A stretch of 64,000 nucleotides of DNA, from assembly GCA_021299455.1 (NCBI GenBank), contig JAJTGQ010000042.1, forward strand, positions 1 through 64,000, written 5' to 3'. The translations under genes were made by a program, and so were the position numbers. A model generated the notes under the pieces. That model saw only the letters and a program-made list of their open reading frames with translations. It did not search any database and was not told where the DNA came from. This DNA is from Flammeovirgaceae bacterium (lineage in GTDB: Bacteria > Bacteroidota > Bacteroidia > Cytophagales > Cyclobacteriaceae). Of the stretch, positions 5,388-10,137 are shown in pieces (position 1 is the stretch's first letter; the number at the start of each line of letters is the position of its first letter).

Positions 5388-5696
5388 TTATCCAATGCTT
5401 TCAATTTGAACCTTAGTGAACTGTTCACGATGGCCGTTTCTTTTAGCGTATCCTTTTCTACGCTTCTTTTTGAATACGATCACCTTATCACCTTTTACAT
5501 GCTCCAGTATCTTACCAGATACCTTCACTCCTTTTACAGTAGGGGCGCCAACTTCTATTGAACCACCATTATCAGTTAGAAGGACTTTATCGAATGACAC
5601 GGTTGCGCCAGCTTCGCCTTCCATCTTTGGTGCATAGATATATTGATCTTTAGCCACTTTGAACTGCTTTCCTGCGATGTCTACAATTGCGTACAT
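5388..5696 (-). CDS. rplU: 50S ribosomal protein L21
   Basis: Large-subunit ribosomal protein that binds 23S rRNA. The 102 residues start MYAIVDIAGKQFKVAKDQYI and include the conserved C-terminal block KVIVFKKKRRKGYAKRNGHR. Length and motifs are typical. It is the first gene of the rplU-rpmA operon and has a strong Bacteroidota promoter directly upstream. Confidence 0.98.
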   Translation of the reverse strand: MYAIVDIAGKQFKVAKDQYIYAPKMEGEAGATVSFDKVLLTDNGGSIEVGAPTVKGVKVSGKILEHVKGDKVIVFKKKRRKGYAKRNGHREQFTKVQIESIG

Positions 5697-5721
5697 GCTT
5701 GTTATTTTTAAAAATGGATCG

Positions 5722-5752
5722 CAAAGATAACGCTAGTTGCTCGAAAAACAAA
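5722..5752 (-). promoter_or_regulatory. Bacteroidota housekeeping promoter of rplU
   Basis: On the reverse strand TTTG (5752-5749) is followed by exactly 19 nt and then TATCTTTG (5729-5722). This matches the Bacteroidota primary-sigma consensus TTTG-N19-TAnnTTTG without a mismatch. Transcription would begin near 5714, giving a leader of roughly 18 nt before the rplU ATG at 5696. Confidence 0.82.
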
Positions 5753-5990
5753 CGATTCTGATAAAATACCCAAATCCCGCTCAAAAATGGGCTTTTAGCC
5801 AAAATAAATCTCTCACTTAATACCTAATTTCACTCGATTGTACAACAATTTCCACACTATTAAACTTTTAACTTTTTTTATTTAAGACTTCACTTTGGGC
5901 GCGTGTGTTAAGTGAGTGATAATGAATTCTTTTATAAAAGTGTTGCTTTTGTTTTTCAAAGAAACACACTCTTTCTGTGCTTCTCGCTCT

Positions 5991-6026
5991 TTTGAATTCT
6001 CTTATGCATTTTGGTTATTTGTCGAC
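5991..6026. repeat. 36-bp element, copy 1
   Basis: Consensus with copy 2: TTTGAnTTCTCTTnTGCATT then TTnGTTATTTGTCGAn, with four differences over 36 bp. The copies are 463 bp apart in the same orientation. TTTG at the start and TTATTTG near the end resemble the spacing of Bacteroidota promoter boxes, but the right-hand box lacks two bases of TAnnTTTG, so promoter function is uncertain. Confidence 0.6.
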
Positions 6027-6068
6027 AAGGATAATGAAAGAAGGGGGGTAAAATTGGTCAAAAAAAAA

Positions 6069-6093
6069 GAGGCTCCGAAGCCTCATTCTTTTT
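6069..6093 (+). terminator. Rho-independent terminator in the rplU-nrdB spacer (first)
   Basis: GAGGCT (6069-6074) and AGCCTC (6079-6084) form a perfect 6-bp stem closed by a CCGA tetraloop. It is preceded by eight A and followed by ATTCTTTTT. It points to a short rightward transcript ending here, with no open reading frame that accounts for it. Confidence 0.75.
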
Positions 6094-6252
6094 GGTTGTT
6101 GAAGAGTCCTAAGGAACCGCGTCAATTTATGCGCAGATTATTTGAACAGATCCCATCAGTCTGTTCTTCAAATATTCTTACTTAGGATAGATAAAGATTG
6201 GTTCATTAACCAATTTAATTCTGGAGGGGGTGTCGCAAGCACCTCCTTTTCT
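6093..6252 (+). ncRNA. Candidate structured small RNA or nrdB leader element
   Basis: Consecutive pairings suit one rightward RNA. An outer stem TCCTAAG (6107-6113) with CTTAGGA (6181-6187) is perfect over 7 bp. It encloses a long hairpin in which TATTTGAA (6139-6146) pairs with TTCAAATA (6167-6174) and CAGA with TCTG, plus a weak GCG/CGC arm. A second perfect hairpin ATTGGTT/AACCAAT (6197-6214) follows. A GC-rich hairpin GGAGG/CCTCC (6223-6246) with TTTTCTTTTT ends the unit. It does not match the conserved sequences I know for tmRNA, RNase P RNA or SRP RNA. It could be a free small RNA or a regulated leader. Confidence 0.55.
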
Positions 6253-6256
6253 TTTT
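6223..6256 (+). terminator. Rho-independent terminator (second), end of the structured RNA
   Basis: GGAGG at 6223-6227 pairs with CCTCC at 6242-6246, extended by GTG/CAC across a small bulge and closed by a short loop. It is followed by TTTTCTTTTT. It ends a rightward transcript about 370 bp before nrdB. Confidence 0.7.
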
Positions 6257-6453
6257 CCAGAGTTCAAGTTTATAACAATATCTGATCAAACCCAATAGAA
6301 TTTTTATACAAACGAAACTTTAACAAAAGCTAATTAATAATTTTATTTATTTGATCTAATCTAATAATTGACACCAGAAATTTGAAAGGGCTAGATACCA
6401 AATACTTATAAAAACCTGGCCGATCATATGTGTCTTTTTAGTCAATTTTGACT

Positions 6454-6489
6454 CTTTGATTTCTCTTGTGCATTTTAGTTATTTGTCGA
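6454..6489. repeat. 36-bp element, copy 2
   Basis: Second copy of the element at 5991-6026, same orientation, about 140 bp upstream of nrdB. Mismatches are scattered single substitutions, which suggests an old duplication under constraint. The position relative to nrdB would suit a promoter or regulator site. Confidence 0.6.
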
Positions 6490-6625
6490 TGCGGCTCTGA
6501 AAAGTTCTGTAATGGAATTAATTGCAGGCCGCTGACAAAAAATAAACTTGAAAAACGAGAAGGCATTGAAAACTTTTTATGTTTAACAATGTCTTTTTAA
6601 ATTATACTCTAACCACCTTATCTAA

Positions 6626-7615
6626 ATGACCCAACCTTTACGCGAAGAACCCATCTTAAAGGAGAACAAAGATCGATTCGTTCTCTTCCCCATCCGCCAA
6701 CACGACATCTGGAAGTACTATAAACAGGCCGAAGCCAGTTTTTGGACTGCCGAAGAGATTGATCTAGGGCAGGATATGAAAGATTGGCTCAACCTAAATG
6801 ATGGAGAGCGCCATTTCATTACACATGTTCTTGCTTTTTTTGCCGCCAGTGATGGTATTGTCAACGAAAACTTGGCGGAACACTTTGTGGGTGAAGTACA
6901 ATATACAGAAGCCAAGTTTTTTTATGGCTTTCAAATTGCGATTGAGAATATTCACTCGGAAACATATTCATTATTAATAGACACCTACGTCAAAGACCCA
7001 AAAGAAAAAGACAAACTTTTTCACGCGATCGAAACGATGGACTGCGTAAAGAAAAAGGCAGATTGGGCTTTGCGTTGGATAGATAAGGGAAGCTTTCAAG
7101 AAAGGCTGGTCGCTTTTGCTGCGGTAGAGGGGATTTTCTTTTCCGGATCGTTCTGTTCGATTTTCTGGCTGAAGAAACGTGGCTTGATGCCGGGTTTAAC
7201 ATTCTCGAACGAATTGATATCCCGCGATGAAGGCTTGCATTGTGATTTTGCCTGCCATTTGTACACCAAGCATGTGGTAAACAAGTTGCCTGAAGAGAGT
7301 GTGATTGCAATTATCAAAGATGCTGTGGAAATCGAGAAAGAATTTGTTACTGATGCATTGCCAGTAAATTTAATTGGCATGAACGCAGCCCAGATGCGCC
7401 AGTACATTGAATTTGTTGCGGATCGTTTGCTGGACGAGTTGGTGGGCAAGAAAATTTACGGTGCCACTAATCCATTTGACTTTATGGACATGATCTCTTT
7501 GCGAGGAAAAACAAATTTCTTTGAAAAGAGAGTAGCCGAATACCAGAAAGCTGGCGTGATGAACAGTATGGAAAAAGAAACATCGCCAAAGTTTTCACTG
7601 AACGAAGATTTTTGA
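6626..7615 (+). CDS. nrdB: Class Ia ribonucleotide reductase, small (radical-generating) subunit
   Basis: Houses the di-iron centre and tyrosyl radical that starts reduction of ribonucleotides to deoxyribonucleotides. The 329 residues resemble eukaryotic R2 more than E. coli NrdB. The radical-tyrosine segment [20 protein letters not shown] is nearly identical to the animal sequence. Iron ligands lie in [22 protein letters not shown] and EGLHCDFA. The C-terminal tail ends FSLNEDF, the peptide that docks on the large subunit. It lies 59 bp upstream of nrdA and is very probably co-transcribed with it. No NrdR-box pair was recognised upstream. Confidence 0.97.
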
Positions 7616-7674
7616 TATATTCGTTTCACCATTTTTTAAACTAGTTTTTTTACAACCTTACACCCTTTATTAAC

Positions 7675-10137
7675 ATGCTCGTATTAAAACGTGACGGACA
7701 CCGGGAGTCCGTGAAGTTTGATAAAATCACTGCCCGCATTGAAAAACTCTGCTACGGTTTAGATCCCAAATTTGTCAACCCGGTAGAGGTGGCGATGAAA
7801 GTTATCAATGGCTTGTATGACGGTGTCTCCACCGTAGAACTGGACAACCTCGCTGCGGAAATTGCCGCTTCGATGACGACCAGGCATCCTGATTTTGCCA
7901 AGTTGGCTGCCCGTATTGCGGTTTCTAACTTGCACAAAGTGACTAGTAAGTCCTTCTCGAACACCATGAAGCGACTGTACACCTATGTGGATCCTAAAAC
8001 AGGCGAAAACGCTCCGCTCATTTCCAAAGAAACCTGGAAAGTAATTCATGAAAATGCGGCTGAGCTAGACGAAGCCGTATTGTATGACCGCGACTTTAGC
8101 TACGACTTCTTTGGATTTAAAACCTTAGAACGTTCGTACTTGATGAAGGTGGATGGCAAAGTAGTTGAACGCCCTCAGCATTTATTAATGCGTGTAGCGA
8201 TCGGTATCCATGGAGAAGATATCCCTGCAGCCATTGAAACCTACAATTTATTATCTGAGAAGTGGTTCACTCACGCCACTCCTACACTCTTCAATGCCGG
8301 TACACCAAAGCCTCAGCTTTCGTCCTGCTTCTTGCTAACCATGAAGGACGATAGCATTGATGGTATCTATGACACGTTAAAACAAACTGCCAAGATTTCA
8401 CAATCAGCTGGCGGTATTGGTCTTAGCATTCACAATGTGCGTGCAAAAGGCTCTTATATTAAAGGAACCGGTGGAACATCCAACGGCATAGTGCCCATGT
8501 TGAGAAACTTCGACATGACTGCGCGTTATGTTGATCAAGGCGGTGGCAAGCGCAAAGGCAGTTTTGCTATTTATTTAGAGCCTTGGCATGCCGATATTTT
8601 TGATTTCCTCGAATTGAAGAAAAACCACGGCAAAGAAGAAATGCGTGCGCGTGATCTTTTCTATGCCATGTGGATTCCTGATTTGTTCATGAAGCGCATC
8701 GAAGACAACGAAATGTGGTCTTTGTTCTGCCCCAATGAGGCACCGGGATTAGCCGATTGTTGGGGCGAAGATTTTGAGCGCTTGTACGAGAAATACGAGA
8801 AAGAAGGCAAGTACCGCAAACAAGTAAAGGCACAGGATATTTGGTTTGAGATCTTAGAAGCTCAGATCGAAACCGGAACACCTTATATGCTTTATAAAGA
8901 TGCGGCTAACCGCAAATCGAACCAAAAGCATTTGGGCACCATCAAGTCAAGTAATTTGTGTACGGAGATTATCGAATACACATCACCTGATGAAGTAGCG
9001 GTTTGTAATCTGGCCTCTATTGCATTACCTAAATTTGTAACGGAAGACGGCAAATTCGATCATCAAAAGTTGTATGACATCACAAAAGTGATTACACGCA
9101 ACTTGAATAAAGTAATTGATGTCAATTACTATCCCGTGATTGAAGCCAAGAACTCAAACATGCGCCATCGCCCGATCGGTATTGGTGTACAAGGCTTGGC
9201 GGATGCGTTCATTTTATTACGCATGCCGTTCGATTCTCCGGAAGCTCGTGGTTTGAATAAAGACATCCACGAAACCATCTACTTCGCTGCCATGGAAGCT
9301 TCTATGGAATTAGCTAAGAAAGATGGTGCGTACGAAACTTTCAAAGGTTCGCCCATCTCAAAAGGAATTTTCCAATTTGATATGTGGGGTGTAACACCTG
9401 ATAGCGGACGTTGGGATTGGGAAAACTTGAAACGCGAAGTGAAACAGCATGGCGCCCGCAACTCGCTGTTGCTCGCCCCTATGCCAACTGCTTCTACTTC
9501 CCAAATTTTAGGAAACAATGAGTGCTTTGAACCTTATACCTCAAACATTTATACACGCAGAACTTTATCAGGAGAGTTCATTATTGCGAATAAGCATTTG
9601 ATGAAGGACTTGATCAGTGCGGGTTTGTGGAGTGAGACCATGCGCCAAAAGTTGATTTCAACGAATGGCTCTGTACAGTCCATTCCTGAGATACCACAAA
9701 ATATTAAGGACATCTATAAAACAGTTTGGGAGATTTCGCAGAAGGCTATCATTGACATGAGTGCAGATCGCGGTGCTTACATCTGCCAAAGTCAAAGTTT
9801 GAACATCCACTTAACAGATCCCAACTTCGGTAAGTTGACTTCTATGCATTTCTATGCCTGGAAGAAAGGGTTGAAGACAGGTATGTACTACTTACGGTCT
9901 ACGGCTGCTGCGGATGCAATCAAGTTCACGTTGGATAAATCTGCGTTGGAACCAACCGTTGCTGCGGTAACTGCTGCTGTCGCTGAACCGGTTATGGCCG
10001 TGCAATCTGTGGCTGTTGCTGAAAACCAGCAGGCTATCCAATACGAACAATTGCCACTAGCGGATTACGACCAGAAACGTGCGGACATGGCCTGTTCTTT
10101 GGATAACCCGGATGCTTGTGAGGCGTGTGGGAGTTAA
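7675..10137 (+). CDS. nrdA: Class Ia ribonucleotide reductase, large (catalytic) subunit
   Basis: Reduces ribonucleoside diphosphates together with NrdB. An N-terminal ATP-cone (about residues 1-90, [20 protein letters not shown]) provides allosteric control. The active site is of eukaryotic R1 type: SNLCTEI carries the thiyl cysteine, AVCNLAS and QLSSCFLL the redox cysteine pair. The C-terminus ends [14 protein letters not shown], with the swinging CxxC used for re-reduction. An Ala/Val-rich linker of about 50 residues separates this tail from the catalytic core. The 820-residue length is normal. A terminator follows at 10178. Confidence 0.97.

Follow-up and report, generated by a model that had tools for sequence, protein, structure and literature searches.

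6S RNA (RF00013) and 6S-Flavo (RF01685) are RNAs of a size range and closed-stem layout like those of the element described here. Unlike them, the candidate has no match to RF00013 or RF01685, either in the window (the whole 64,000-nucleotide stretch that was analysed, from the draft genome G000 of 3.9 Mb in 176 contigs) or in its own genome, the RF01685 test being a weak one because the cut-off was passed in none of 14 control genomes. Among the small RNAs (sRNAs) of Bacteroidota, Rfp18 of Flavobacterium psychrophilum is described as detected in transcriptomes and conserved across its genus (PMC9723704), and it and those of Bacteroides thetaiotaomicron (PMC7366714) as intergenic and independently transcribed. 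The candidate resembles both in being intergenic and strongly folded with a TTTG-type promoter nearby; it differs from Rfp18 in being known from three genomes of two lineages, and from sequence alone. Its surroundings are comparable to the nrdB promoter regions of the same family, of which the promoters P1 and P2 and the segment 6257-6454 are copies or relatives; here, however, a folded unit ending in a terminator interrupts a duplicated region, which is not the case in 95 of the 98 distinct spacers compared. Among the literature matches listed, the available portions of text make no mention of this element.

Folding and boundaries of the RNA candidate

The candidate lies in the 929-bp spacer between the divergent rplU and the nrdB-nrdA genes (Table 1), with the start of nrdB 370 bp past its 3' end, as the initial annotation had it. 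The nearest named relatives of the NrdB protein, among the best 80 of 584, are metagenome genomes labelled Cytophagales or Cyclobacteriaceae. A Pfam search of the longest ORF overlapping the candidate (89 aa) gave no match, and the remaining ORFs within 6000-6490 are of 47 aa or less. No Rfam family matches the window at its gathering score; within 5697-6626 there are 12 matches at E values of 10 or less, all far below theirs. A five-codon frame encoding MKEGG at 6034-6051 directly follows P1, ahead of T1, and is possibly what is left of a gene; the sole change in it between G066 and the window, 6045 G to A, is synonymous.

Table 1. Features of the rplU-nrdBA region of the window
Feature	Coordinates	Strand	Basis
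rplU, ribosomal protein L21, divergent neighbour	5388..5696	-	Pfam PF00829, E 1.9e-37
Native upstream module of the nrdB promoter	5808..5940	+	As in nearest insert-free relatives
P1, upstream copy of nrdB core promoter, TTTG-N23-TTTGT	5991..6025	+	Repeat; spacer consensus
Insert between the two promoter copies	6026..6454	+	Absent in G025, G011, G010, G012, G079, G059
T1, terminator-like hairpin, T-runs on both strands	6069..6093	+	Better on minus
Structured RNA candidate: head, hairpin, terminator	6093..6256	+	Folding; counterpart in G058
Head: closing stem enclosing two inner hairpins	6106..6188	+	Folding alone; closing-stem pair probabilities 0.76-1.0
T2, terminator of the RNA candidate	6223..6256	+	Stem 6223-6249, U-run ending 6256
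Second, foreign-type nrdB upstream region	6257..6454	+	Local alignment, BLAST matches
P2, nrdB core promoter adjoining nrdB, at -171 like near relatives' single promoter	6455..6489	+	
nrdB, class I ribonucleotide reductase small subunit	6626..7615	+	Pfam PF00268, E 4.8e-112
nrdA, large subunit with ATP cone	7675..10137	+	Pfam PF02867, PF00317, PF03477

All the structural parts initially described are present at their positions: a closing stem (TCCTAAG/CTTAGGA, arms 6107-6113 and 6181-6187, with one extra G-U pair and 67 nt between the arms), an inner hairpin of the head at 6135-6178, a second hairpin GATTGGTT-CATT-AACCAATT at 6196-6215 and a terminator with a U-run. Measured against dinucleotide shuffles, the plus strand of 6093-6256 folds at -51.3 kcal/mol versus -34.3 +/- 4.0 for the shuffles (z -4.29, 0/200 shuffles), and a recount gave z -4.67 (0/300). 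The minus strand of the RNA body reaches z -2.37, so that the folding is strand-biased to plus, and the 83-nt head attains z -4.94 without the terminator (0/300 shuffles). For comparison, 83 other rplU-nrdB spacers supplied 305 windows of the same length (164 nt), which, with 60 shuffles for each window, gave a median z of -0.37, with 11 windows at z <= -3, three at z <= -4 and a lowest value of -4.36. The excess of pairing claimed for this AT-rich spacer is thus borne out, and the candidate's folding lies at the extreme of its class, with the reservation that it was chosen for its pairing.

The intrinsic terminator at the 3' end lies on the same strand as the candidate, and one is also found in G058. 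Of the independent terminator said to precede the RNA, the stem (6069-6084) is real, but the minus strand has the better T-run (T9, against ATTCTTTTT on plus); T1 may double as the hairpin at the 5' end of a longer P1 transcript. Of the 98 spacers, 11 have terminator-like sites on the plus strand, with two each in the window and G066 and one each in G058 and eight others (L029, L058, L073, L145, L153, L159, L160, L161).

A doubled nrdB promoter around an insert

The two promoter copies constitute a 35-nt direct repeat, 91% identical, which flanks the candidate. For comparison we used rplU-nrdB spacers from genus genomes and named records: a first survey yielded 107, of which 85 are distinct, and 13 further distinct ones brought these to 98, L143 giving no rplU. 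The promoter motif TTTG-N19..24-TTTG[T/C], 120-280 nt before nrdB, is found in 71 of the 98 distinct spacers, and in 59 of the first 85 versus 2.8 of 83 after shuffling. Its spacing among these first 85 is 23 in 42 cases, 24 in 15 and 21 in two (L018 and L019), which we read as register shifts. In sequence, the motif agrees with the layout described for sigma-A promoters of Bacteroidota, in which a -7 box of the TAnnTTTG type occupies -12 to -5 (PMC9723704), and transcription start sites are predicted near 6026 for P1 and near 6490 for P2. P1 fits the nrdB promoter consensus, with T1 standing between it and the RNA body. Two full motif matches more than 100 nt apart are seen in 2 of the 98 spacers, those of the window and G066.

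The sequences preceding the two promoters have separate affinities. The segment 5800-5990 aligns with the spacers of G025, G010 and G011 (scores 172-185 versus a null maximum of 20.5), and 6257-6454 is similar to the sequence upstream of nrdB in a different clade (score 43 with L021 versus a null maximum of 20.5), its six best spacers being L020-L025 and 12 of 83 scoring above the shuffled maximum. In the native module, a stretch TTAAGTGAGTGATAATGAA is kept, by eye, in many relatives (L016-L019, L026, L032) and a 16-nt inverted repeat pairs 5808-5823 with 5905-5920; another clade has a different-looking module (ACTATCTACCAAATACTTACA) in its place, and all three are possible regulator sites. 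Downstream of P2, the nrdB leader (6490-6625) contains a GCGGC...GCCGC pairing that makes it a candidate structured leader; by eye the pairing looks partly kept in the close relatives L013, L016 and L018.

An insert of about 464 nt doubled the nrdB promoter in the window's lineage, and close relatives are without it: insert-free spacers measure 465-471 nt against 929 and carry one promoter each. The NrdB identity of these relatives is 99% (G025, G011), 97% (G012, G079) and 96% (G059), and G010, whose spacer of 466 bp also has one promoter, lies on a contig edge. In G025, P1-type upstream sequence passes straight into P2-type downstream sequence. When compared with 83 spacers (without G058), the RNA body scored marginally above the shuffled maximum in three (16, 16 and 15.5 versus 15) and 6026-6092 in none.

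G066 shares the insert in a nearly identical form. Over 5508-7820 it differs from G000 at 8 of 2,313 positions (99.65% identity), while the two differ at about 9 per 100 bases to the right of 7820 (nrdA 10%) and at 3 or more per 100 to the left of 5508, with gaps in the rplU-rpmA spacer (rplU 4.9%). This tract of about 2.3 kb covers the spacer and nrdB and reaches into the beginning of nrdA. We attribute it to recent recombination between G000 and G066, a chimeric assembly of either draft being less likely; in either event its near-identity informs little on selection. The single change within the RNA (6196/6215) turns a G-U into a G-C and keeps the pair.

A similarly built unit in a second lineage

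G058, with an NrdB 89% identical to that of the window, has a 923-bp rplU-nrdB spacer, and within it L141:527-684 matches the RNA model R1 (34.7 bits; E 1.3e-8, searching 28 kb). The parts are ordered as in the window: a promoter at -564, a hairpin, a folded body, a hairpin and a terminator (AGGGGAGCG...CGCTCCCCT with TTCTTTTT), beyond which come A+T-rich DNA and another promoter-like sequence. The latter matches the promoters of L026-L028 and L140 in its -7 half (26 of 29 letters with L028), and its -33 TTTG is not kept; the hairpin at T1's place is a terminator candidate listed on the minus strand only. The sister genome G007, with nrdB DNA 95.6% identical to that of G058, is without the insert (spacer 513 bp), and the two are alignable up to the end of the first promoter and then again from 70 nt before nrdB. 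Hence, in both lineages the foreign DNA starts immediately after the native promoter's -7 box. The two inserts may have been gained separately, or they may be what remains of a single ancestral state that recombination removed from the sisters. G058 also has a fragment of a second nrdB (G058:C79:45760-46209, L259), which covers NrdB residues 179-329 at 77% identity with one TAG inside.

Folded on its own, the G058 stretch takes up the topology of the window, namely a closing stem round two inner hairpins, a hairpin and a terminator (z -3.31, 0/200 shuffles, pair probabilities mostly >0.8). Judged by order and topology, the unit and its position are common to both lineages. The sequence similarity of the two RNA bodies is at chance level (14.5, null maximum 15.0). 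In a sequence-only alignment (A3), in which 86.3% of cells pair, changes on both sides affect 14 of 47 pairs, as opposed to 4.5 in shuffles and 1-5 in slid versions, and G058 keeps only 26 of 45 scorable pairs; a model-fitted alignment (A4) has both-side changes in 20 of 47. A head-only model (R3), run with filters off on 32 loci, returned 22 chance-level hits (8-11 bits, E up to 10) with G058 not among them, so that the R1 match in G058 rests mainly on the hairpin and terminator. The G058 head alone is weaker than that of the window, 49 of 1000 shuffles folding equally well, and a closed three-way head appears in 81 of 1000 shuffles of it; of 1094 windows taken from other spacers, 60 form such a head too. 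As a covariation check on two lineages only, the both-side changes in A3 are suggestive, but the head-only model misses G058; descent of the two heads from one ancestor appears likely.

Overall, the unit is found in 3 of the 98 spacers, those of the window, G066 and G058. DNA searches recovered the insert in 2 of 62 genus genomes, with short partial matches in nine more (in G070, G030 and G034 confined to 6332-6408), in 2 of 390 family genomes, with matches of 40 nt or less in two others, and in 1 of 395 class genomes, its own. R1 found 2 carriers in 390 genomes of the family and, in 390 of the order, one (its own), plus four weak matches (G109, G262, G488, G522). The model R2, which includes G058, found 3 of 60 genus genomes plus weak matches in G028 (twice), and its own genome among 186 of the family plus seven weak matches, none near nrdB (G107, G160, G228, G181, G120, G110, G109); in 100 sources, mostly nrdB loci, it was clear only in the window, G066 and G058. 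The genome samples overlap and searches over 40 genomes used strict filters; since these missed the sampled G058, the negative genome searches are weak and do not establish wider absence. Comparison locus by locus thus brings out a unit that searches of whole genomes, whether by sequence or by model, may overlook.

We rejected the weak R1 and R2 matches, as in the alignments of 12 of the 13 (all but the R2 match in G109) the terminator and hairpin fit and the head is deleted or mostly mispaired. The least clear cases are L250, L253 and L255, which kept a mispaired head; none of the 13 loci (L164, L165, L136, L137, L248-L256) has nrdB or rplU nearby. The model match at L086 comprises the terminator only, and further model hits fell in L064, L075, the window at 206-270 and second strands. 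BLAST leads in G046, G028 and G011 (28-44 nt) lie, by eye, in coding sequence or its start; the DNA match in G320 is 28 nt at the 5' edge only, the IMG/VR contig L166 has a 17-nt match, and a 26-nt pattern found nothing in IMG/VR. Among the matches listed, the best had E 0.03 for plasmids (20 of 27 records) and E 0.1 for phages (20 of 28).

A candidate small-RNA gene and its alternatives

Given that another lineage has a similarly built unit at the corresponding position, the folded unit is probably a small-RNA gene inserted behind an extra copy of the nrdB promoter. The initial annotation had proposed either a separate small RNA or a regulated nrdBA leader. The former is plausible in view of the strand-biased folding, the terminators on both sides, the longest ORF without a Pfam match and the like unit in G058; the latter is unsupported, since P2 lies between the RNA and nrdB. 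With moderate confidence, we favour a plus-strand sRNA transcription unit, ending at T2 near 6256, within an insert at the nrdB promoter, a foreign-type promoter being retained for nrdBA. As the foreign-type upstream region and promoter follow the RNA unit, nrdBA would keep a promoter of its own. Counted against this unit is that T1 separates the body from P1, the only recognised upstream promoter.

It is conceivable, though rather unlikely, that the insert is debris of foreign DNA, in which the hairpins merely stop transcription from P1 as a terminator or insulator and the body is non-functional. The terminators flanking the body, the MKEGG frame between P1 and T1, the dissimilarity of the bodies in the two lineages and the patchy distribution, with only recent sharing by G066, are all consistent with debris; however, the head folds significantly without either terminator, and G058 has its parts arranged in the same way. 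This recurrence would also agree with an attenuator or leader of nrdBA, wherein a second nrdB promoter, P1, would be active and polymerase passing T1 and T2 under some conditions would contribute to the expression of nrdBA, as would the location on the same strand at that short distance from nrdB and the native upstream module retained at P1. Nevertheless, with P2 placed downstream of T2, as in near relatives, and such an element wanting in 95 of 98 distinct spacers, an attenuator is very unlikely.

The orientation of T1 bears on a further alternative, an RNA of the minus strand that starts to the right of 6256 and ends at T1. Since T1 is the better terminator on that strand in both lineages, such a product retains a small probability, and 6061-6220 folds on the minus strand with z -3.68. 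Yet folding of the body favours plus (z -4.67 versus -2.37), the strand on which T2 works, and a minus-strand RNA is highly improbable; the promoter scan of that strand used an E. coli-type consensus only.

In the favoured plus-strand unit, RNA polymerase would start at P1, around 6026, under the native nrdB upstream module. A short product of about 68 nt would end at T1, and read-through of T1 would give an RNA of about 231 nt ending at T2 (about 213 nt in G058). Because P1 sits under the native nrdB module, the RNA would be expected to follow nrdB control: co-regulation with ribonucleotide reductase is predicted, subject to read-through at T1, and T1 and T2 together would insulate nrdBA from P1. 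Base-pairing in trans is our default guess for the mode of action; pairing of the RNA with the starts of nrdB and nrdA is not notable, 182 and 179 of 200 shuffles, respectively, pairing equally. The element is, then, most plausibly a patchily distributed sRNA-like unit that took over the native nrdB promoter and brought nrdBA a replacement, with probable transcription from P1 and probable co-regulation with ribonucleotide reductase.

More doubtfully, the nrdB promoter of this family might be a recurrent landing site for an sRNA unit that brings a replacement promoter with it. The RNA would take over the native ribonucleotide reductase promoter, its expression would accompany dNTP synthesis, and it would pass from one species to another through recombination, of which the G000/G066 tract is an instance. 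If it is transcribed, the unit would be an sRNA gene governed by a housekeeping promoter that has been duplicated; as sister species in both lineages preserve the empty site, its gain and its effect on dNTP synthesis would be directly testable.
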